Positions 21,350-43,376 of a stretch of 64,000 bases of DNA are shown piece by piece. The notes below the pieces were generated by a model. The model saw only the letters and a program-made list of their open reading frames with translations. It did not search any database and had not been told where the DNA came from. The stretch comes from a virus, in IMG/VR virus record IMGVR_UViG_3300042484_001245, positions 28,931 to 92,930 of that record, one strand, 5' to 3'. Position numbers and translations under genes: made by a program. How positions within the stretch are numbered: position 1 is the stretch's first letter; each line of letters starts with the position of its first letter.

Positions 21350-21499
21350 ATGCTTTCCATTGCAGTTATCAATTCAGCTAGTTAGGACATCGAAAATCAA
21401 TAGGAATAACGAATCTGATACACGACATAGCTCCGTGTTAAAATGCCGTCCTATTGCCGTTTAGTGTTGTTGAGTTTGCTTAAACCAAATGCTACTAAA

Positions 21500-21543
21500 T
21501 TTGATAGCACAATCTATCAAATTTGATAGTACAAGCTATCAAA
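21500..21543. repeat. tandem pair of perfect 8-bp inverted repeats
   Basis: The order is TTTGATAG - 6 bases - CTATCAAA, then directly TTTGATAG - 6 bases - CTATCAAA. The two dyads are identical in both arms and in spacing, and the middle arms also form a 16-bp palindrome. It lies within the gene-free stretch between 21350 and 21948. Such symmetry suggests protein binding sites (operator or replication iterons) or alternative RNA hairpins. Confidence 0.8.
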
Positions 21544-21599
21544 AAATATTTTTTCATCCATCTCTGGAAAGCGCGGTTTTTGTTCTCTTGGAATACTAC

Positions 21600-21912
21600 A
21601 TACGCTTGTAGCGCCTTCAGCATATCTTTACCTAAACCTTTTATTAAGATCTTATAAGGCCTTGGTAGGCCTTTATTAAACCCCTCCACGCACGAGCTGT
21701 TTTTTTCATTCAATCTACAAATAGGTCTCATGGATAAAAACTCGGATTTTGTGGAAAGATTCTACACGAATTTTCTTGATTCATTCTTTCAGGTTCTTTA
21801 TAAGACCTTATTAGAACCTTCCTAACCTAAAACCTTCCTAGACCTTTTAAGACCTTAAAACCTTTTAAGGTTCCTAAAAGGAACCTAAACCCAAAATCTC
21901 TAAAAGATTTTC
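21600..21912. repeat. AT-rich non-coding region with degenerate CCTT repeats and hairpins
   Basis: The region 21350-21948 holds no convincing gene. Its second half repeats variants of AAGACCTTA/AAAACCTTTT many times. It includes a 7-bp hairpin AGGTTCC-TAAAA-GGAACCT near 21878-21896 and AAAATCT-CTAAA-AGATTTT just after. A 78-codon reverse ORF across 21495-21731 has no recognisable features. Possible roles are a replication origin, a regulatory RNA, or an early control region ahead of gp55. Confidence 0.6.
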
Positions 21913-21940
21913 TTGTATTAGTTTTAACATATGTTAGTAT
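21913..21940 (+). promoter_or_regulatory. sigma70-like promoter upstream of gp55
   Basis: TTGTAT, 16 bases, TAGTAT, ending 8 bases before the gp55 ATG. The fit is moderate. An early or middle promoter is expected for the late sigma factor. Confidence 0.4.
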
Positions 21941-21948
21941 GAAACACT

Positions 21949-28495: not shown

Positions 28496-30697
28496 ATGTC
28501 AAAACGCATATCATCAAAAGAAACACTTGCTAAGTTGATGGCAACGGAAAACATTTTCGTTGAACACGCTAACGTACCAACGGCTGGTTTCGATCTTATC
28601 AATCGACGGTTGCTTCTCCCTAACTGGAAAAACATCTCCGATGATGTGTACACACTTCTGATTTCGCATGAAGTTGGTCACGCTCTTTACACTCCGACTA
28701 AAGAGTGGGAAGATGCTATTCTCAAGTCTAAAGACATGAATCTCAAACAAGTTGTAAACATCGTTGAAGATGTTCGCATTGAGAAGATGATTCAACAAAA
28801 GTTTCCTGGTACTACTCGTGCCTTTCGTTCTGGATACGATGAGTTAGAAAAGTCCAATCTCTTCGGTACAAAAGATCGTGAGATTACTTCATACGGATTG
28901 CTCGACCGTCTTAACCTTCATTTCAAGATCGGACACTTTGGTTATGCTAACGTTCCGTTCTCTGATAAAGAACGACCTTGGCTTGATCGTGTGTCAGGCT
29001 GTAAATCATTCGCCGATGTTCTCAAAGTAGCAACCGAGTTAATGGAATTCGTTGAGCAGAATCCTGAATCGCAAGGTGATCCTCAAAAGAATCAAGATGG
29101 TGAGGGTGACTCATCTGAGAATGTCCAGATGAGTGAAGACGGCAAGCCTGGTGATAATCAGATTAGTGGTCAACAGTCACGATCACGTTCAATGCGTGGC
29201 AGCCGTTCAGAAGATGGTGAACAAGAGTCACAGGCAGCATCTGGACAATTAGGTGATGACTCATCAAACGAGAAGAGTCAAGATAGTGATGCCGATGGTG
29301 CCAGCTCCGACTCTCAAGAGGGTAATATCTCTGAGACTCAAAAACATTTTGATTCTGCGATTCAGGGACTTGTCGATAAGTCAATCTCTGATACAAAGTA
29401 TGCTAACTTTCCTGAGATCCAACTTGATAAGTTGATCGTTCCTTACAAGACCGTTCATGAGCAGATCACATCGTTCTACTCTAATTACTACTCCACGATG
29501 TATAATCAAGCCTCACAACAGGTTGATCAGTTTCGTAACAGTAGCAAGAATGTTGTGAACCAGTTAGCTAATATCTTTGAGATGAAAAAGAAGGCTAAAC
29601 TTGATGTCAAAGCCCTTACATCCAAGACTGGTAAACTTGACATGAATCGTGTACACTCATACCGCTACAACGATGACGTGTTCAAAAAAGTTACTACAGT
29701 GCCACAGGGCAAGAATCACGGTCTTGTGATGTTCATCGATATGTCAAGCTCGATGAGCGAGAACCTTGCTGGTACGTTTGAGCAATTGCTTAATCTCGTA
29801 TTGTTCTGTAAGAGAGTGAACATTCCGTATGACGTATACGGATTCACTGATTCGTATAGTGCTCGTCGCAATCTTCCTGCACACCCAACTAAGAATGGTT
29901 CGTTGTACTTTGATCCACACTTCTGTCTCCGTCAATACTTCAGTAGCAGAATGACTGGACCTGAGTTTAATCAAGCCCTTCAGAATGTAATATGCCTTAT
30001 GCGTCACTACTCTGGACAGTTGATGAGTGGTCTTCCTTCAGAAGAGATTCTGAACACTACTCCACTTGTTCCAGCTATCATGACTGCAATACCTCTTGTT
30101 CAGAAGTTTCGTCGTGATTATGGTCTTGATGTTGTCAATACGATCTTCTTAACTGATGGTGAAGACACTCACGGACTCTTGTATCACTCTAACACTGGTG
30201 ACACAAAGTATTTTGCGTGTGACCGTTATGGATTTAACCGTGTTACTGAGAAGTATTTTGTTCGTGATGTAAAGACTCGTAAGCAATGGGAAGTTAAGAA
30301 CACGACAAACGATATGCTCAACATCCTTCGTGAGACGGCTGGTGTAAAGACTATCGGCTTTCACATCATTCGTAAGAGAGATGTACCATACGTTGTTGGA
30401 CGCTACACAAAGAACACAAAAGAAGAACAAGCACACGTTGAATGCTTCAAGACGAACAAGTTCGCCGAGATGACTAACATCCCTGGCTACGATGCGTACT
30501 ACTTGATTCCTTCTGGATCGAGTCTCAACGTTGGCGATGACGAGTTCGAGGGTAACGTTGACACTACTGTTGATTGGGACGATGAGAAACAAGCAAAGAA
30601 GGCGATGAAAGCCGTTCAGAAAAGTTTCAACAATTTCATGAAACAGAAAGTTACCAGCCGAATCCTTCTCAACCGCTTTATCGAGCATATTTCATAG
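28496..30697 (+). CDS. CobT-like protein: HExxH peptidase motif plus VWA domain
   Basis: 733 residues from the ATG at 28496, with AAGG upstream. The N-terminal part has LLISHEVGHALY (H58, E59, H62), a zinc-peptidase motif. A long S/Q/D/E-rich linker follows (about residues 180-285), then a helical region and a von Willebrand A domain whose MIDAS motif is MFIDMSSSMSE (near residue 415). This layout matches CobT-like VWA proteins that work with a MoxR/CobS AAA+ partner. Exactly such a partner is the next gene. Cobalt insertion into the B12 ring is the classic role; a general metal-chelatase or remodelling role is also possible. Confidence 0.8.
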   Translation: MSKRISSKETLAKLMATENIFVEHANVPTAGFDLINRRLLLPNWKNISDDVYTLLISHEVGHALYTPTKEWEDAILKSKDMNLKQVVNIVEDVRIEKMIQQKFPGTTRAFRSGYDELEKSNLFGTKDREITSYGLLDRLNLHFKIGHFGYANVPFSDKERPWLDRVSGCKSFADVLKVATELMEFVEQNPESQGDPQKNQDGEGDSSENVQMSEDGKPGDNQISGQQSRSRSMRGSRSEDGEQESQAASGQLGDDSSNEKSQDSDADGASSDSQEGNISETQKHFDSAIQGLVDKSISDTKYANFPEIQLDKLIVPYKTVHEQITSFYSNYYSTMYNQASQQVDQFRNSSKNVVNQLANIFEMKKKAKLDVKALTSKTGKLDMNRVHSYRYNDDVFKKVTTVPQGKNHGLVMFIDMSSSMSENLAGTFEQLLNLVLFCKRVNIPYDVYGFTDSYSARRNLPAHPTKNGSLYFDPHFCLRQYFSSRMTGPEFNQALQNVICLMRHYSGQLMSGLPSEEILNTTPLVPAIMTAIPLVQKFRRDYGLDVVNTIFLTDGEDTHGLLYHSNTGDTKYFACDRYGFNRVTEKYFVRDVKTRKQWEVKNTTNDMLNILRETAGVKTIGFHIIRKRDVPYVVGRYTKNTKEEQAHVECFKTNKFAEMTNIPGYDAYYLIPSGSSLNVGDDEFEGNVDTTVDWDDEKQAKKAMKAVQKSFNNFMKQKVTSRILLNRFIEHIS

Positions 30698-32239: not shown

Positions 32240-32500
32240 ATGTCAACTAGCACATCTCAAAACGCAAAGCTCGTTCGTCGTCTTAGCACTGGAAAGAACC
32301 TCACTGTAACCGAGGCTCGTGGTAAGTATGGTATCGCTCGTCTCGCCGCTCGCATTCATGAGCTTCGTGAGGCTGGATTCCCAATCTACACCAACAAGGT
32401 TCGTGTAAAGGGTGGATCTAATAAGGGTCGTGTTGTTACAGCATATCGCCTTGCTGTTGATGCTACTCCAAAGTCGCTCTTTTCTTCTTTCACTGCATAA
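32240..32500 (+). CDS. winged-helix DNA-binding protein (HTH_39 type)
   Basis: 86 residues from the ATG at 32240 (MSTSTSQNAKLV), preceded by ATAAGGATAATT. The central segment LTVTEARGKYGIARLAARIH followed by ELREAGFPIYTNKVRVKGG matches the small phage helix-turn-helix family, with the recognition helix around IARLAARIHELR. It has its own promoter and is closed by a terminator, so it is a one-gene unit. A regulator or replication accessory is likely; the target is unknown. Confidence 0.72.
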   Translation: MSTSTSQNAKLVRRLSTGKNLTVTEARGKYGIARLAARIHELREAGFPIYTNKVRVKGGSNKGRVVTAYRLAVDATPKSLFSSFTA

Positions 32501-36289: not shown

Positions 36290-36991
36290 GTGAAGATCTT
36301 GTGTATATCTGATACACATCAGCACCATGATTCTATTACTTTGGTGCCATGCGATGTTCTAATTATTGCTGGTGATATTTGTACTTCAGGTGAAATTGTA
36401 CAAGTTGAAAAGTTTGCCAATTGGCTTCAACGTCAATCACACAATTTTAACAAAGCCATAATTATCGCAGGCAATCATGACTGGGCACTCATGCGCTTTC
36501 GTATTCTTGCATTAGAAGCTCTACGCCGTGCTATAGGCGACAAACTAATCTATCTTGAAGACTCGTCGTGTATCATTGATGGGGTGAAATTCTACGGGTC
36601 TCCATGGCAGCCAGAATTTAATTCATGGGCATTTAATGTTCCACGTGGTGAAAAGATCAGAACGATCTGGGATGCAATCGACTTGGATACAGACGTTTTG
36701 ATCACACATGGTCCACCATTTGGTATCGGCGACAGAGTGTTTGGCAACAGTGTTGGTTGTTTTGAGCTTGCAAAAAAATTGCGTGAACTTAATCGGCTCT
36801 CACTTCATGTGTATGGTCACGTTCATGCTGGCAATGGAGCGTACATCAGCGAAGAGCATCCAGGTGTTCAATTTTGCAATGCGTCACTACTTGATGAAGA
36901 CTATAAGCCAGTAAACCCATCATATATGTACACGTTTCTCAACACCGCCAACTATCGTGTCAGCACTGCCACTTCCATCAAGCTGTTTTAG
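36290..36991 (+). CDS. calcineurin-like metallophosphoesterase
   Basis: 233 residues from a GTG 2 bases after the dUTPase stop. Motifs are CISDTHQHH (D-x-H), IIAGDICTSG, IIAGNHDWAL, ITHGPPFG and YGHVHAGNG. The layout with HGPP and GHVH resembles the MPPED/239FB-like branch. The substrate is unknown; nucleotide or protein phosphate are both possible. It is separate from gp47, which has the same fold. Confidence 0.85.
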   Translation: MKILCISDTHQHHDSITLVPCDVLIIAGDICTSGEIVQVEKFANWLQRQSHNFNKAIIIAGNHDWALMRFRILALEALRRAIGDKLIYLEDSSCIIDGVKFYGSPWQPEFNSWAFNVPRGEKIRTIWDAIDLDTDVLITHGPPFGIGDRVFGNSVGCFELAKKLRELNRLSLHVYGHVHAGNGAYISEEHPGVQFCNASLLDEDYKPVNPSYMYTFLNTANYRVSTATSIKLF

Positions 36992-37243
36992 ATCACATTG
37001 TTGTTAAAACAGACACCGTTGAGACTATGATTTGGTCCAACTTTGGTCCAAGTTTGGTCCAAAATTTGACGAGTTTGGAGAGTTAGACCTGTTGTTGGTC
37101 ATATTAGTGTGAAAACAGATGTTGTGAGAGCTGTCATTTGGTCCAACTTTGGTCCAAGTTTGGTCCAAAAATAAACCAAGCAATACTGTGCTTGATCATA
37201 TTAGCGTGATAACAACTATTGTTATGACTGTGATTTGGTCCAA
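36991..37243. repeat. phased TTGGTCCAA iterons in an imperfect ~100-bp tandem repeat
   Basis: Seven copies of the 9-bp near-palindrome TTGGTCCAA start at 37032, 37043, 37054, 37138, 37149, 37160 and 37235. Within each triplet the period is exactly 11 bp, one helical turn. The copies lie in a larger unit starting at 36991, 37097 and 37194 (GATCACATT / GGTCATATTAG / GATCATATTAG, then a conserved AAAACAGA-type stretch). No gene occupies 36992-37290. This is typical of cooperative protein binding: an origin, an operator or a packaging-like site. Confidence 0.9.
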
Positions 37244-37290
37244 AATGACCGAATGAATACCAAGCCAATTTTGTGCGCATATATAATAGT

Positions 37291-37737
37291 ATGGGTAACA
37301 AAACCAGCGAAGCCGGAAAAAATTTGATCAAAGAGTTTGAAGGTTTTCGAGCTACAGCATACATTTGTCCAGCAGGTGTTGTAACTGTCGGTTATGGCAC
37401 AACTCGTATCAAAGGTAATGCTGTTCAACTTGGAACAACAATCACCACAGACGAAGCCGATGTTCTTTTGGAAGAAGATCTCAAAAAGTTTGAAGATGCT
37501 GTGAACCAAAATGTGCGTGTTGAAATAACACAAAATCAGTTTGACGCTCTTGTTGCGTTCGTCTATAATGTAGGAGCAGGAAACTTTAAGAAGTCCACTT
37601 TGCTCAAGAAAATTAACGATGAGGACTTTACTGTAGCCGCCGATGAGTTTCTTAAATGGAACAAAGCTGGCGGCAAAGTTCTTAAAGGTCTTACGAGAAG
37701 ACGCACTGCGGAACGTGAATTATTTTTAAGAGACTAA
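37291..37737 (+). CDS. endolysin, GH24 lysozyme
   Basis: 148 residues from ATG 37291 (MGNKTSEAGKNLI). LIKEFEGFRATAY and TVGYGTT are the family landmarks. The triad positions are E17, C26 and T32: the usual acidic second residue is cysteine here, with the same spacing as T4 lysozyme (E11-D20-T26). NQFDALVAFVYNVGAG and RRTAERELFL complete the fold. There is no signal or anchor segment, so it should depend on a holin. A TATAAT lies only 4 bases before the ATG, so the leader is short or transcription starts upstream. Confidence 0.9.
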   Translation: MGNKTSEAGKNLIKEFEGFRATAYICPAGVVTVGYGTTRIKGNAVQLGTTITTDEADVLLEEDLKKFEDAVNQNVRVEITQNQFDALVAFVYNVGAGNFKKSTLLKKINDEDFTVAADEFLKWNKAGGKVLKGLTRRRTAERELFLRD

Positions 37738-37738
37738 T

Positions 37739-38044
37739 ATGAGCGTATTGATTACACGATTGATTACAGGTGAAGAGATTCTTGGTAGCATCACACTTTC
37801 TAATGATGATACGTGCGTGATTGAAAATCCAGTACATATTGCAGCTAGTCAGAATCCTAGCACAGGCAAGATTGACATCCACATGGCACCTTTTGTGCCA
37901 CTGTGTGCAGATAAAGCACTTACAATTAACCTCAAGAATGTGTTGTGTCAATATGAGCCAGTGCTTGAGATCAAGAATAAGTACAGCACAATGTTTGGTA
38001 GCGGAATTATCATTCCATCAAATACTGGTCTTGCTGGCGTCTAA
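37739..38044 (+). CDS. hypothetical protein, LSm-like, second copy type
   Basis: 101 residues starting 1 base after the lysozyme stop. The opening (LITRLITGEEILGSITLSND, then CVIENPVHI) has the Sm1-like pattern L-x-T-G-E-E-I-x-G and the N-P turn. It is similar in layout to the 20927 gene. The C-terminus runs SKSM-type and GIIIPSNTGLAGV-like, small and neutral. RNA binding is possible but unproven. Confidence 0.5.
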   Translation: MSVLITRLITGEEILGSITLSNDDTCVIENPVHIAASQNPSTGKIDIHMAPFVPLCADKALTINLKNVLCQYEPVLEIKNKYSTMFGSGIIIPSNTGLAGV

Positions 38045-38087: not shown

Positions 38088-39554
38088 ATGACAACAGAAC
38101 GTTTCTATACGAATTGCACTTGCATTGGCAACAACATTTTATATCGAGGTATCGAAGACGGCGAGCGAGTGTCGAGAAAGTTTACGTTCAAGCCAAAATT
38201 GTTTGTGCCGACAAACAAGCAAACAAAGTGGAAGACACTTGATGGCAAGTTTGTTGATAAGATCGAGTTTCAAGACATCAACGATGCAAAAGAGTTTGTT
38301 CGCAAGTACGAAGGTGTTGATAATTTCGTATACTACGGCAACACGAAGTATCAGTATGTTCATCTTGCTGATGCTTTTCCGCAGATGGTTGATTATGATT
38401 TCTCACGCATAGTTATTGCCAATATAGATATTGAGGTAGCTTCCGAGGGTGGGTTTGCTCCACCAGAGAACCCTTTTGAAGAAGTGATAGCAATAACTGT
38501 TGAGAGCAATAACACGTATGTTGTCTTTGGCTGCGGTGAATTCACATCTTCAAAGGATAATGTCAAATACATTCGTTGTGAGAATGAAGTTGATCTGCTA
38601 CGACGTTTCATGGCGCATTGGGAACATCTTGCTCCAGACATTGTAACTGGCTGGAACGTTCAGTTCTACGATATTCCGTACATTGTAAATCGAATCTCTC
38701 GTGTATTCGGTGACAAAGAAGCAAAGCGAATGTCACCGTGGAAGTATCTCTCAACACGATCAGCCGCATACAAAGGTCGTATGCATCAAGTTGTCGAGCT
38801 TGTTGGCATCTCTACACTCGATTACATCGAGATGTACAGAAAGTATCAGCCGCGCCAAGAGAGTGAGAAGTTGAACTACATCGCATACGCAGAGCTTGGT
38901 GAAAAGAAGATCTCATATGAAGAATATGGCGACTTGCACACACTGTACAAGAGCAACTATCAAAAGTTCATCGAGTATAACATCAAAGACGTTGAGCTTG
39001 TTCGTAAACTTGAAGAAAAGCTAAAGCTCATCGAGATGGTCGTTGCTCTCGCATATGATGCAAAAGTGAACTATGTTGACACGTTCGCACAAGTGCGTAT
39101 GTGGGACACAATCATCTACAACTACCTCAAGCAACAGAACATCGTGCTTCCTCGATTGCTCGAAAAAGATAAGAGTGCAGACTATGCTGGTGCATACGTC
39201 AAAGATGTTGTGCCTGGTATGTACGAGTGGGTCGTTTCATTCGACTTGAACTCTCTGTATCCTAACTTGATTGCTCAGTTTAATATCTCACCAGAGTGTT
39301 TGTTGCCAGACAAATATCGCCACGTTACGGTACAGTCGCTTTTGAATCGTCAAGTTGATACGAGTGATGTTACAAAAGCTAATATTGGATTAGCAGCTAA
39401 CGGTCACTGTTTCAGTAACGACAAGATTGGATTCTTGCCTGATGTTCTCATGCGTATGTACGAAGATCGTAAGTTGTACAAAAATAAGATGTTGGCTGCG
39501 CAGAAAGAGTTGGAACGAGTCAAAGAAGAAATGCATCGTCGTGGATTGCAATAA
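38088..39554 (+). CDS. gp43: DNA polymerase gp43, N-terminal part (split gene)
   Basis: 488 residues. Exonuclease domain with ANIDIEVASEGG (D114, E116), VTGWNVQFYDIPY and IEYNIKDVELVRKL. Then the palm begins with motif A SFDLNSLYPNLI (D386). The ORF ends in the first finger helix (MLAAQKELERVKEEMHRRGLQ). Motifs B and C are missing here and lie in the ORF at 42270. Together the two parts make 854 residues, a normal size. The pieces must assemble to give an active enzyme. Confidence 0.95.
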   Translation: MTTERFYTNCTCIGNNILYRGIEDGERVSRKFTFKPKLFVPTNKQTKWKTLDGKFVDKIEFQDINDAKEFVRKYEGVDNFVYYGNTKYQYVHLADAFPQMVDYDFSRIVIANIDIEVASEGGFAPPENPFEEVIAITVESNNTYVVFGCGEFTSSKDNVKYIRCENEVDLLRRFMAHWEHLAPDIVTGWNVQFYDIPYIVNRISRVFGDKEAKRMSPWKYLSTRSAAYKGRMHQVVELVGISTLDYIEMYRKYQPRQESEKLNYIAYAELGEKKISYEEYGDLHTLYKSNYQKFIEYNIKDVELVRKLEEKLKLIEMVVALAYDAKVNYVDTFAQVRMWDTIIYNYLKQQNIVLPRLLEKDKSADYAGAYVKDVVPGMYEWVVSFDLNSLYPNLIAQFNISPECLLPDKYRHVTVQSLLNRQVDTSDVTKANIGLAANGHCFSNDKIGFLPDVLMRMYEDRKLYKNKMLAAQKELERVKEEMHRRGLQ

Positions 39555-39579
39555 AAATAATCCAACTCCGATTATTTAA

Positions 39580-39608
39580 TTGAACCACAATTTCGTATTT
39601 GTTATATT
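39580..39608 (+). promoter_or_regulatory. sigma70 promoter for the genes inserted in gp43
   Basis: TTGAAC, 17 bases, TATATT. It lies inside the insert just after the N-terminal gp43 stop. Transcription from here would cover the insert genes and the C-terminal half of gp43. Confidence 0.7.
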
Positions 39609-39617
39609 GTTTGTATA

Positions 39618-39630
39618 GGGTAAGTTACCC
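39618..39630. promoter_or_regulatory. GGGTAAGTTACCC palindrome at the transcript start
   Basis: A 13-bp dyad centred about 16 bases downstream of the -10 box, covering the expected transcript start. It is placed well for an operator, and 4 bases before the ATG at 39634 it could also hide the ribosome site. Confidence 0.5.
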
Positions 39631-39633
39631 TTA

Positions 39634-41172
39634 ATGTTTACGTTAAACAAACAGTATATTATGAAATTGTTATCTGCCATTTTTGACTCTCTCCTAGAGA
39701 CTTCTGATTTTCCTAGTGCATCTCGAAAAACAATCACACTCGCTGATTATTACGCACTCAGAACATACATCGACACTTCGCCTGTTGAGTATCAACGACC
39801 TTACGATCCTAGCCGAGAGAACTCTGATGAGAAAGGATTAGTTCGATACGTTCTTGATGTTTTCTTTTACAGAGACATAAACGCAAATTTACTTCCTGCA
39901 CTTGTGATGCGACAACTTCACATGAAGCAAATTGAGCAGCGTGAGAAAGCAGGACGAAAGAATAACAAGATGCTTGAAATGACAGACGGGCAACACAGAA
40001 CCGTTATCATGTTTAAGTTACTCAGTGGCGAAATCAGAATACCTTCTGGCTACACTGTGATGTTCAAGGGTAGAAACATTCTCATCGGTGATAAGACAAT
40101 ACCTGAACTGATGCAAATGGGATCAGACTATCGAGAACTTATCGAGACGTGTGTATTCTCAATGGAAGTACATCTCGACTATTACTACAACATCTCAGAT
40201 AAACGTGCAGCAGAGATTTTTGCTGAACGAAACTCTGGAGCACCACAATCAAGACAGACTGTTCGTAATTGCCAAACACATAAACTGAGCATTCTTGTTC
40301 GTTCTCTTGCACGAGACATACCAGAGTTTGATACAACGTGTCATCCTCTCATGGCAGTTTCGTCTAACAAAAAGGGTGAACTCATCGGAAAGTTTTACCC
40401 AGGCAAGATGACAAGCGATCTCAACTTTGATGAAGATGTTGCACGAACGTTAGCGACAATCATTGGATACGATAAGCTGTCTAAAGAAGATTCGATGAGC
40501 ATAGATCAAAACTCACTTGATAAACTCTATGCTGATTATGGTGATCAATTGAATCAGAAATACTACAATATGCTGATTCAAGTATTAGATTTTCAGCATC
40601 AATTTTTGAAACACATACATGAGAATTTACGGCGTGATCGTATTGACAAGAGCTTCTGGAATGCTCTTCGTTACGTCTCTGTGATTCTCGTGCATAGAGC
40701 ATATGTTGACAATCGAACACTCTCGTTTGGTGTTGATAAGCGAGCAGCTACCTGGCTTATGTGGACTAAGTTCAATAAGTTCATAAAAGATATGTGTACT
40801 GTGCCAAAGAAAGATCGAGCTAATATCAAACAGACTTTGTTTGAGCGCAGTTTGAATAAGATGAACTGGTATTCAAAGACAAGTGGCACAGGTCTTGCTG
40901 TAGTATTTGCCGCCTTTGATAGATTCTTAAAGAACAATTCGCCAAAATCTTTCGGTGTCATAATGAAAGACAATCGTGAAACGTTCAGTGCAAAAACGAG
41001 ATCGATGTTATACACAGAACAAGATGGTAGAGATGCAATCACAGGTCGCATGATTGATTACAGTGATGCTGTCACTGATCATGTTGAGTGTCGAGCTATG
41101 GGTGGCGAAACAGAAAAGCATAATGCGCAAGTTGTTTCAGAATGCACAAACAGCATGAAGAGTGTGAACTAA
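39634..41172 (+). CDS. DUF262/ParB-like domain plus HNH nuclease
   Basis: 512 residues (or from ATG 39661). The N-terminal half has the DUF262-like pattern VEYQRPYDPS, then LEMTDGQHRTVIMFKLLSG (a ParB-type D-G-x-H-R motif) and AEIFAERNSGAPQSRQTVRN. The C-terminal end is an HNH-type motif: YTEQDGRDAITGRMIDYSDA, then DHVECRAMGGETEKHNAQVV and CTNSMKS. The DUF262-HNH layout is shared with GmrS/GmrD-type modification-dependent nucleases and with mobile endonucleases. Its place within a split polymerase gene favours a mobile role, but defence against rival phages is possible. Confidence 0.7.
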   Translation: MFTLNKQYIMKLLSAIFDSLLETSDFPSASRKTITLADYYALRTYIDTSPVEYQRPYDPSRENSDEKGLVRYVLDVFFYRDINANLLPALVMRQLHMKQIEQREKAGRKNNKMLEMTDGQHRTVIMFKLLSGEIRIPSGYTVMFKGRNILIGDKTIPELMQMGSDYRELIETCVFSMEVHLDYYYNISDKRAAEIFAERNSGAPQSRQTVRNCQTHKLSILVRSLARDIPEFDTTCHPLMAVSSNKKGELIGKFYPGKMTSDLNFDEDVARTLATIIGYDKLSKEDSMSIDQNSLDKLYADYGDQLNQKYYNMLIQVLDFQHQFLKHIHENLRRDRIDKSFWNALRYVSVILVHRAYVDNRTLSFGVDKRAATWLMWTKFNKFIKDMCTVPKKDRANIKQTLFERSLNKMNWYSKTSGTGLAVVFAAFDRFLKNNSPKSFGVIMKDNRETFSAKTRSMLYTEQDGRDAITGRMIDYSDAVTDHVECRAMGGETEKHNAQVVSECTNSMKSVN

Positions 41173-41762
41173 TGTGTGCTGCCATGAATAAACAAGTTAA
41201 GAAGACGATTAAAGAGATAAACAAAATACTCTCAGAGCAGTGTCCGACGTTTACACTTAATGTGGACTCTGTTAGACACTTAGATGCCATACGCTCCGAC
41301 ACAAAACTACAGTTTTATGAAAAGACTCACACATTTGGAGAACCTAAAGTTGTTACTCGAATGTGGAAGCATTTTAAGTGTAGGGGATTACCTAGTGTTA
41401 CGCCAACAAAAACGATCACACTCTATATTGTGATCATGCGCAACAAGAAAACTGGAGAACCACACTATAAGTTTGGCACAACAAAATCTCTGTATGTTGC
41501 TGAACGATTTCTAAAGAAAAGCTCTACGTGGGAGTTTATGCATGAGGCTGTAACATCTCGTGTTGGTCCAAAAGACCAGATGCTTGCTCTCGAAAAGCGC
41601 ATCAAAGAGTTTGCTATGAAGAATGGATTGATTCAAGAAGGTGTTGAAGACTTCATCTTTGGAGGTCACACTGAACTTTTAATACCAACACGTTTAATTC
41701 CTGCTGATAAGTATTGCGACCTGTTGCGAATCTTTAATGACTTTGGGTTTGACGGATTGTAG
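41172..41762 (+). CDS. GIY-YIG-like putative endonuclease
   Basis: 196 residues from the ATG in the TAATG overlap with the previous gene; the ORF also has an in-frame ATG at 41142. The segment TLYIVIMRNKKTGEPHYKFG followed by TTKSLYVAERFLKK has the GIY-YIG shape (L-Y-I-V, then Y-K-F-G-T-T and a conserved R). It resembles the T5orf172/MUG113 branch. Classical G-I-Y is degenerate. With the DUF262-HNH gene it makes two nuclease-type genes in the gp43 insert. Confidence 0.5.
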   Translation: MCAAMNKQVKKTIKEINKILSEQCPTFTLNVDSVRHLDAIRSDTKLQFYEKTHTFGEPKVVTRMWKHFKCRGLPSVTPTKTITLYIVIMRNKKTGEPHYKFGTTKSLYVAERFLKKSSTWEFMHEAVTSRVGPKDQMLALEKRIKEFAMKNGLIQEGVEDFIFGGHTELLIPTRLIPADKYCDLLRIFNDFGFDGL

Positions 41763-41768
41763 TACACT

Positions 41769-42260
41769 ATGTCACACATTAACTGGCAACAATACTTTAT
41801 GGGCATGGCATTACTGGCTGCACAACGTAGCAAAGACCCTAGCACACAAGTTGGCTCATGTATTGTCACAAACGATAATAGAATTATCGGCATTGGCTGG
41901 AATGGAATGCCAAAATCAAAGCCTGGTTATAATAACGACACATCTCTCCCTTGGGGTAAAGACGCTCAAGATCCTCTTGAGAACAAATATATGTACGTTG
42001 TTCATGCTGAGCCAAATGCCATTCTTCATGCGTCAGAAGATGTGTCTGGATGTACAATGTATCTTACTTGGTTTCCTTGTAGTGAGTGTGCCAAGACGAT
42101 AGCACAATCTGGCATTTCTAAACTCGTGTATCTCAAAGAAAATGCAACCGATAGGTATCGAGTCAGTATGGAAGCAGCCAAGAAAATTTTTACCGCATCT
42201 GGAGTTGAATGTATAGAATATGTTGCGAATAAAGATGACATTGTTCTCAAGTTCGACTAG
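41769..42260 (+). CDS. cd: dCMP deaminase
   Basis: 163 residues. Zinc ligands are H79 in VVHAEPNAI (with E81) and C104, C107 in FPCSECA; STQVGSCIV and IGIGWNGMP complete the deoxycytidylate deaminase pattern. It turns dCMP to dUMP for thymidylate synthesis. Unusual is its position inside the gp43 insert, as a metabolic gene carried with two nuclease genes. Confidence 0.93.
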   Translation: MSHINWQQYFMGMALLAAQRSKDPSTQVGSCIVTNDNRIIGIGWNGMPKSKPGYNNDTSLPWGKDAQDPLENKYMYVVHAEPNAILHASEDVSGCTMYLTWFPCSECAKTIAQSGISKLVYLKENATDRYRVSMEAAKKIFTASGVECIEYVANKDDIVLKFD

Positions 42261-42269
42261 AATACAATC

Positions 42270-43376
42270 ATGCAAGATCTTTCAAAACTATCTGATGCTG
42301 AGTTAAAAGCATACGCACGAAAACTCTCGTTTGACATCTCGAAGTATCACAACTTCCAGTTGACGAAAAAGATTCAGCTCAACTCTGCGTACGGAGCGAT
42401 GGGCAATCAATACTTTCGTTTCTACGACATTCGTTTGGCTGAAGCAGTAACACTTTCTGGTCAGTTAGTGATTCAGTGGCTTGCTCGTGACATCAACAAG
42501 TATATGAACACGATTCTTAAAACTGAGAATCACGATTATGTTATTGCAATCGATACTGACTCAATTTACTTGAATCTTAAACAACTTGTTCACACAGTAT
42601 ACAAAGACAAGCTGCCTGAAGACAAATCAAAGATCGTTGACTTTCTCGACAAAGTGGCTAACGAGAAGATTCAAACAGTCATCGACAAAAGTTGTAAAGA
42701 ACTCAGAACATATTTGAATGCACGTTCACAAAAGATGCAGATGAAGCGAGAGTCGATTGCAGACAAAGCAATCTGGACTGCAAAGAAGCGTTACATTCTG
42801 AATGTGTTTGACGTTGAGGGTGTTCGATACGAAACACCGAAGCTCAAGATTCAAGGTATTGAGGCTGTCAAGTCGTCTACGCCAGAAGTGTGTCGTCAGA
42901 AAATTAAAGACGCAATCAAAATCATTCTCACAAAATCTCAATCAGAGTTGCACGGCTATATCGATTCATTCAAGTCTGAGTTTAAGCAGTTGCCACCAGA
43001 GAGAGTTGCGTTTCCTCGTGGCTGCAACGGCATCAGCACATACTCAGATCACAAATCGATTTACAAGAAAGGTACTCCAATCCATGTTCGTGGTGCGTTA
43101 GTGTACAATCGTTTAATCAAAGATAAGAAATTGGATAAGAAATATCCTTGCATCCATGAAGGTGATAAGATAAAATTCATTTACTTGCGTGAGCCAAATC
43201 CGACGCAGGAAAATGTTATCACTATGAGTGAAGATGGTCTTCCGCAAGAACTAAATCTTCACAAGTATGTTGATTACGAATTGCAGTTTGAAAAAACGTT
43301 TGTTGACCCACTCAAGATCATTCTCGATGCAATCAACTGGTCGACAAAGAAGACAATGAGTTTTGATGATTTATAG
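42270..43376 (+). CDS. gp43: DNA polymerase gp43, C-terminal part (split gene)
   Basis: 368 residues. It begins with the second finger helix and motif B (KKIQLNSAYGAMGN, residues 34-46), then motif C AIDTDSIYL (D95, D97), KKRYILN and a thumb domain. The C-terminus WSTKKTMSFDDL is the clamp-binding tail type seen in T4 gp43. It starts ATG-CAA-GAT where the N-part ends TTG-CAA-TAA, so TGCAA is repeated at both junctions. Removal of 2724 bases (908 codons) between them restores one frame. No clear ribosome site precedes the ATG. Confidence 0.93.
   Translation: MQDLSKLSDAELKAYARKLSFDISKYHNFQLTKKIQLNSAYGAMGNQYFRFYDIRLAEAVTLSGQLVIQWLARDINKYMNTILKTENHDYVIAIDTDSIYLNLKQLVHTVYKDKLPEDKSKIVDFLDKVANEKIQTVIDKSCKELRTYLNARSQKMQMKRESIADKAIWTAKKRYILNVFDVEGVRYETPKLKIQGIEAVKSSTPEVCRQKIKDAIKIILTKSQSELHGYIDSFKSEFKQLPPERVAFPRGCNGISTYSDHKSIYKKGTPIHVRGALVYNRLIKDKKLDKKYPCIHEGDKIKFIYLREPNPTQENVITMSEDGLPQELNLHKYVDYELQFEKTFVDPLKIILDAINWSTKKTMSFDDL

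Follow-up and report, generated by a model that had tools for sequence, protein, structure and literature searches.

Direct repeats of 11 bp are a feature of the ParR/parC system of plasmid R1. Iterons have been described as marking the origins of a phage satellite (PLE RepA) and of plasmids (PMC7145576, in excerpt). In bacteriophage T4, the lysozyme gene e is reported to be kept silent by a hairpin in early read-through RNA, its expression coming from late promoters directly upstream, and a translational switch of this type is also reported for T4 soc, 49 and I-TevI (PMC3014915, in excerpt). No description of the element treated here came up in literature searches on phage iterons, T4-like origins, ParR and leaderless late lysozyme. 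Among the literature matches listed for TTGGTCCAA as text, none was on phages by title.

The element lies in a virus record of IMG/VR (IMGVR_UViG_3300042484_001245) and was analysed in a window, the whole stretch of 64,000 nucleotides from position 28,931 to 92,930 of that record; coordinates below are those of the window. It is surrounded by a T4-like replication cluster consisting of clamp, clamp-loader subunits, RegA, dUTPase, phosphoesterase, lysozyme, a small conserved protein after the lysozyme (37739-38044), and a split polymerase, some of these names being presumptive and assigned by T4 gene order. The DNA polymerase gene (488 + 368 aa, window 38088-43376) has its halves parted by ORFs of 512 aa and 206 aa with no Pfam or PHROG match and by a dCMP deaminase gene. 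Elsewhere in the window, an ORF-poor stretch of about 600 bp (21350-21948) is rich in dyads and is a candidate origin or control region; its dyad and repeat motifs include GATAGCACAATCTATCAAATTTGATAGTACAAGCTATC and repeated AAGACCTTA, AACCTTTTAAGG and AAGGTTCCTAAAAGGAACC. The features at the array and the neighbouring genes are as follows.

36290-36991, plus strand: metallophosphoesterase gene upstream of the insert (PF00149; phrog_1649)
36983-37040, plus strand: unit 1, 58 nt, through its first iteron (from the repeat family and alignment)
36992-37290, plus strand: apparent lineage-specific insert, from the phosphoesterase stop to the lysozyme start (from outgroup gene gaps)
37031-37062, plus strand: triplet 1, three copies of TTTGGTCCAA (37031, 37042, 37053) in 11-bp steps, invariant in the relatives L009 and L011
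37089-37146, plus strand: unit 2, 58 nt (from the repeat family and alignment)
37137-37168, plus strand: triplet 2, three copies of TTTGGTCCAA (37137, 37148, 37159) in 11-bp steps, invariant in L009 and L011
37186-37243, plus strand: unit 3, 58 nt, with an inner dyad (from the repeat family; inverted pair of 22 nt, 73% complementary)
37234-37243, plus strand: seventh TTTGGTCCAA, single, invariant in L009 and L011
37269-37303, plus strand: predicted RNA hairpin burying the lysozyme start codon in read-through transcripts (from folding)
37278-37285, plus strand: CATATATA, late-promoter-like, in the 5' part of the hairpin and 5 nt before the ATG
37291-37737, plus strand: lysozyme gene (PF00959, E 6e-51; endolysin phrog_7)

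A first-pass annotation of the DNA had described seven 9-mers in two triplets of 11-bp period and one single, and this is borne out, the repeat being an exact 10-mer, TTTGGTCCAA, that occurs seven times in a 3+3+1 grouping. The three tandem units which it had proposed also stand, except that their starts move from 36991, 37097 and 37194 to slightly upstream (36983, 37089 and 37186), with unit 1 beginning in the last bases of the phosphoesterase gene. The spacing is 106 bp between units 1 and 2 and 97 bp between units 2 and 3, and the unit bodies have diverged between copies in the window (38/56 positions identical in units 1-2 and 43/56 in units 2-3). Phasing on one face of the helix holds within the triplets and between units 1 and 2; in the window it fails for the seventh site, which is about one third of a turn off phase (19.33 turns at 10.5 bp per turn). 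In L009 and L011 the last unit spacing is 106 bp (20.19 turns), unlike the 97 bp of the window. With both strands of the near-palindrome counted, the window contains 40 occurrences of TTGGTCCAA with at most one mismatch, compared with 14.4 +/- 3.9 for shuffles. Exact TTTGGTCCAA is found eight times in the whole 92,930-base record, the eighth copy (window 7368) lying in a coding frame, and the record thus holds no comparable cluster elsewhere, a similar density having been named in advance as an argument against the element. The view that no gene covers the array agrees with the reading frames, which comprise just minus-strand frames of 52-103 aa, classed as spurious by eye. At the array region there are no plus-strand terminators and no tRNA, and sigma-70-like sites are not above shuffles.

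Other identities of the units were rejected. By eye (CATATTAGTRTGA...AAACNAG), they resembled decayed copies of the lysozyme 5' end; an nhmmer profile of nine units did not pick the lysozyme start (matches outside the array had E >= 0.5), and p <= 0.03 was reached by 1 of 108 comparisons in pairwise shuffle tests of units against the lysozyme start. Short protein-coding repeats are not supported either: all units are in one reading frame, each ends in a stop, and variable sites among genotypes by codon position are 10/42, 5/39 and 10/39.

The phosphoesterase, the small protein, and further genes served as queries for collecting relatives. Both the phosphoesterase and lysozyme genes were placed in 30 locus rows, 3 from two array contigs and 27 from 14 outgroup contigs. 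With contigs deduplicated by name, and with the many phosphoesterase loci that have no nearby lysozyme left out, the gap between the two genes in the outgroups is -17 to +47 nt and is without an array in 14 of 14 distinct contigs, the genes overlapping in eight. The first-pass remark that T4-like phages do not usually have such an element here is in line with this absence from all 14 contigs of more distant relatives. The insert is 299 nt long in the window and 317 nt in L009 and L011, with a GC content of 37%. TTTGGTCCAA was found in 0 of 13 outgroup records searched and in 6-7 copies each in L009, L010 and L011; L139, a record of the array lineage that ends inside the phosphoesterase gene, is also without it. 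Because the outgroups have neither the array nor the 10-mer, insertion in one lineage is simpler than loss elsewhere, and the array is most simply a lineage-specific insertion of about 300 bp. Since the outgroup genes abut or overlap, the insert would newly part the lysozyme gene from the operon. One of the relatives, L011, is mosaic: its divergence from the window is 4% of bases in the N-part of the polymerase and 12% in the lysozyme, which suggests recombination between the polymerase and lysozyme genes.

The same 3+3+1 layout is present at the same place in two diverged relatives, L009 and L011, so that the lack of conservation in close relatives that would have counted against the element was not seen. 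Among the window, L009 and L011, none of 70 iteron columns is variable, whereas 57 of the 229 remaining insert columns are (Fisher p 5e-8, sites taken as independent, as for the p-values below). The relative L010 was excluded from this count because its contig stops within unit 3 and because it is near-identical to the window, with 1 difference over 226 nt of the array end. As a neutral yardstick, 4-fold sites of five nearby genes differ between the window and L009 at 154 of 405 positions (38%). Zero changes in 70 iteron columns have a p of 3e-15 at this rate and of 3e-8 at the insert's own 22%. The non-iteron part of the insert also evolves more slowly than the 4-fold sites (50/229 versus 154/405, p 3e-5). 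The distance from unit start to first iteron is 40 bp and constant in nine units, and the 11-bp steps are exact. As judged from these alignments, the array region is real and under strong sequence-specific selection. The iterons have remained unchanged while their surroundings changed and are therefore probably a docking site for a protein.

The lysozyme gene follows the array, as had been noted at first pass, and alignment with relatives makes ATG 37291 the more likely start over GTG 37273. Folding predicts a hairpin of about 35 nt, with the AUG in its upper stem, that is common to the window, L009 and L011 (z -2.3, -4.6 and -4.7). A hairpin including the lysozyme AUG, as in T4 gene e, is accordingly present as a prediction in 3 of 3 array genotypes. 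In the window, the lower stem of this hairpin pairs again in a shifted register, which falls short of clean column-by-column covariation. Five outgroup lysozyme leaders have folding z-scores of 0.1, -1.8, -1.4, 0.5 and -0.5. In the lysozyme leader of one outgroup without an array (L229, 2500-2565), an AUG-pairing hairpin (z -1.8) has AATAAATA in its loop or next to it. The late-promoter-like motif within the hairpin, CATATATA in the window and CATACATA in L009 and L011, is a weak match (6/8) to the T4 late motif TATAAATA. At the same spot, the outgroups have TATAAATA (L144, L145), AATAAATA (L229) or CATATATA (L261), and some, such as L226 and L096, have no such motif at the lysozyme start. The plus strand of the window has 12 copies of ATAAATA and the minus strand none, a total not above shuffles (9.0 +/- 2.7). 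The record encodes a late sigma homologue (phrog_234). On sequence grounds CATATATA is a putative late promoter, and as it is just 5 nt from the AUG, the late mRNA would be nearly leaderless. A Shine-Dalgarno sequence is absent at the lysozyme gene, which is uninformative because a simple one is found in just 14 of 63 plus-strand ORFs (starts uncurated).

The reading preferred here, with a probability of about 40%, is that the array is a putative DNA operator, that is, seven identical sites for a sequence-specific protein, by which lysozyme is kept off early. Exact conservation with hardly any compensatory change points to protein recognition, more likely as DNA. The sites lie between the early operon and the lysozyme gene, upstream of the late-promoter-like motif, and appear placed to block or gate read-through. 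In the proposed mechanism, the array would have been inserted between a replication-operon gene (the phosphoesterase) and the lysozyme gene in one phage lineage, and a protein would bind along the DNA at the helically phased triplets. RNA polymerase coming from the replication operon would be blocked or gated by the bound protein, which would prevent early lysozyme synthesis. In transcripts still reading through, the hairpin at the end of the insert would hide the lysozyme AUG, and the late promoter overlapping the hairpin would give late transcripts without its 5' arm. Protein binding, action on DNA and not on RNA, and lysozyme delay as the effect are what we infer; the comparison of array carriers covers two diverged relatives, and the record is incomplete. 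As a docking site, the array probably helps to time lysis. Against the operator reading stand the off-phase seventh site of the window and the hairpin, which alone could be enough to delay lysozyme. It is doubtful that a double early lock was gained in one insertion, with a seven-site DNA roadblock to operon read-through, bound by a protein of phage or host, and a start-codon hairpin that a nearly leaderless late transcript would open.

Of the identities proposed at first pass, a protein-bound array of the repressor or operator type fits best, the sites being identical, under selection, and beside a potentially regulated gene; a binder did not emerge from among the families listed for the record. 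The winged-helix protein that had been suggested as the binder is an HTH_39 protein (gene at 32246-32500). Homologues are encoded by array-less relatives, with identities of 80% in L141, 57% in L142 and L143, 61% in L144 and L145, and 51% in L148, and co-occurrence therefore gives no reason to name this protein as the binder. It is the sole repressor-type candidate to surface among the matches listed, and relatives outside the array lineage have it too; other DNA-binding repressor families in the record are not among the matches listed (best 25 families, 48 small proteins).

Recognition as RNA is an unlikely alternative. The tandem iterons would fold as hairpins and bind a protein or an RNase that might, for instance, silence read-through mRNA or trim it. 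Two neighbouring iterons can pair in an 8-bp stem containing one U-U mismatch, and the GACCGAA that closely follows the single iteron of unit 3 is able to pair with it; palindromic DNA sites, however, yield such hairpins automatically. The region folds better than shuffles (z -2.9; units -3.1, -1.1 and -2.9), but RNAalifold found compensatory change in 0 of 9 unit pairs and 1 of 95 whole-region pairs, and there was no Rfam family match.

A replication origin, in which the iterons would be sites for an initiator or accessory protein and the phosphoesterase-lysozyme region would serve as a phage origin within the replication cluster, is unlikely. The surrounding replication genes (clamp, clamp-loader subunits, RegA, split polymerase), the iterated near-palindromic sites in an insert of 37% GC, and the iterons at phage-satellite and plasmid origins (PMC7145576, in excerpt) are consistent with it. 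However, sister lineages are entirely without the element, the second non-coding region with many dyads at 21350-21948 is an equally good candidate, and no initiator or Rep-type family is among the matches listed (best 25 families, 48 small proteins, incomplete record). Nothing specific favours the origin proposed at first pass, and GC skew, a weak proxy, has no turn at 37 kb. T4-like origins need not show such a turn.

It is quite improbable that the array is an imported site, such as an integrase arm, a plasmid-type centromere, or a satellite origin, that came from a satellite or temperate phage and is now a decoy, docking site, or relic. The insertion at the gene boundary is clean, and some TTGGTCCAA pairs and TTTGGTC arrays elsewhere adjoin integrases or tRNA genes. 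Yet an integrase (PF00589), as expected beside arm sites, is absent from the 92.9 kb of the partial record, and among viral contigs the phased 10-mer pair is limited to the array lineage (3 contigs). Matches in the phage and plasmid collections were weak at best, and the copy of a host or rival control site envisaged at first pass found no source in these collections or in 84,980 host genomes. Phased TTTGGTC triplets in hosts are no commoner than the reversed control (4 versus 5 of 392 genomes and 1 versus 0 of 395).

A widespread class of phased TTTGGTC arrays is likewise not supported, and such arrays are not treated as relatives of the element, because the pattern in host genomes is as frequent as the reversed control. 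The three-copy TTTGGTC pattern was found in 71 viral contigs, including three of the array lineage. Some of these arrays are intergenic with variable spacers, and many with a 12-bp period are inside long reading frames. PF00589 is present in 13 of 39 TTTGGTC-array records, hand-chosen from >100 loci, and does not adjoin the array in all of them. A regex screen for integrase motifs gave 4/40, 5/67 and 2/34 loci, against 0/79 and 0/73 in controls. A match in a Microcystis phage was rejected as chance; it is just upstream of an annotated integrase start, is probably coding (by eye), and has a best E-value of 6. In L328, L345, L349, L357 and L359, TTTGGTCCAA repeats of 33-bp period read, by eye, as 11-residue F-G-P coding repeats. 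A different phage (L350, 1011-1355), judged by eye to have terminase- and portal-like ORFs, carries seven TTTGGTC within 345 bp, part of them spaced by 11-12 bp, as against 1.7 expected over the whole 11.6-kb locus. The MAG contigs L107, L108 and L123 have TTGGTCCAATTTTGGTCCAA between an apparent tRNA end and integrase-like ORFs (by eye). Lastly, a neutral tandem duplication, an unstable repeat with no function, is very improbable: tandem repeats of 11-12 bp period are widespread, but 0 of 70 iteron columns vary at 38% neutral divergence while the unit bodies have diverged between copies, and homogenisation acting inside one genome would not maintain identity between lineages.

Lysozyme timing helps to decide the moment of host burst. 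A lineage that keeps its lysozyme gene in the replication operon seems to have gained a T4-analogous hairpin together with a perfectly conserved seven-site array. Were the double lock true, lysis timing in a T4-like phage would be under the control of an operator array, which might perhaps also serve as a hook for a host or satellite protein to sense the phage or be titrated by it. The array offers a defined DNA bait for a DNA-binding protein of phage or host, and a natural test case for the question whether roadblocks on DNA contribute to the timing of lysis in T4-like phages.

Overall, the region shares features with several known systems. Like ParR/parC of R1, the array has clusters of direct repeats of about 11 bp in helical phase; unlike that system, it occurs in a lytic phage without evident partition need, and the ParM/ParR family is not among the matches listed. 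It resembles the iteron origins of plasmids and satellites in its near-palindromic direct repeats in a non-coding region and differs from them in that no initiator gene is among the matches listed and sister lineages do without the element. The I-TevI operator, which overlaps a late promoter, is alike in that a DNA-bound regulator (inferred for the present array) acts on a gene in an early unit of a T4-like phage (PMC2988022, in excerpt). That operator is single, degenerate, and homing-site-like, whereas seven identical phased sites are found here. A further parallel is T4 gene e, in which the lysozyme gene is also downstream of early transcription, the AUG lies in a hairpin of the read-through RNA (predicted here), and the late promoter (putative here) is placed so that late transcripts are without the 5' arm (PMC3014915, in excerpt). 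The sequence and gene neighbourhood differ from those of T4, the motif here is just 5 nt from the AUG with a late mRNA that would be nearly leaderless, and a seven-site array lies upstream. The hairpin part fits a known kind of control, and the seven-site array represents a new variation.
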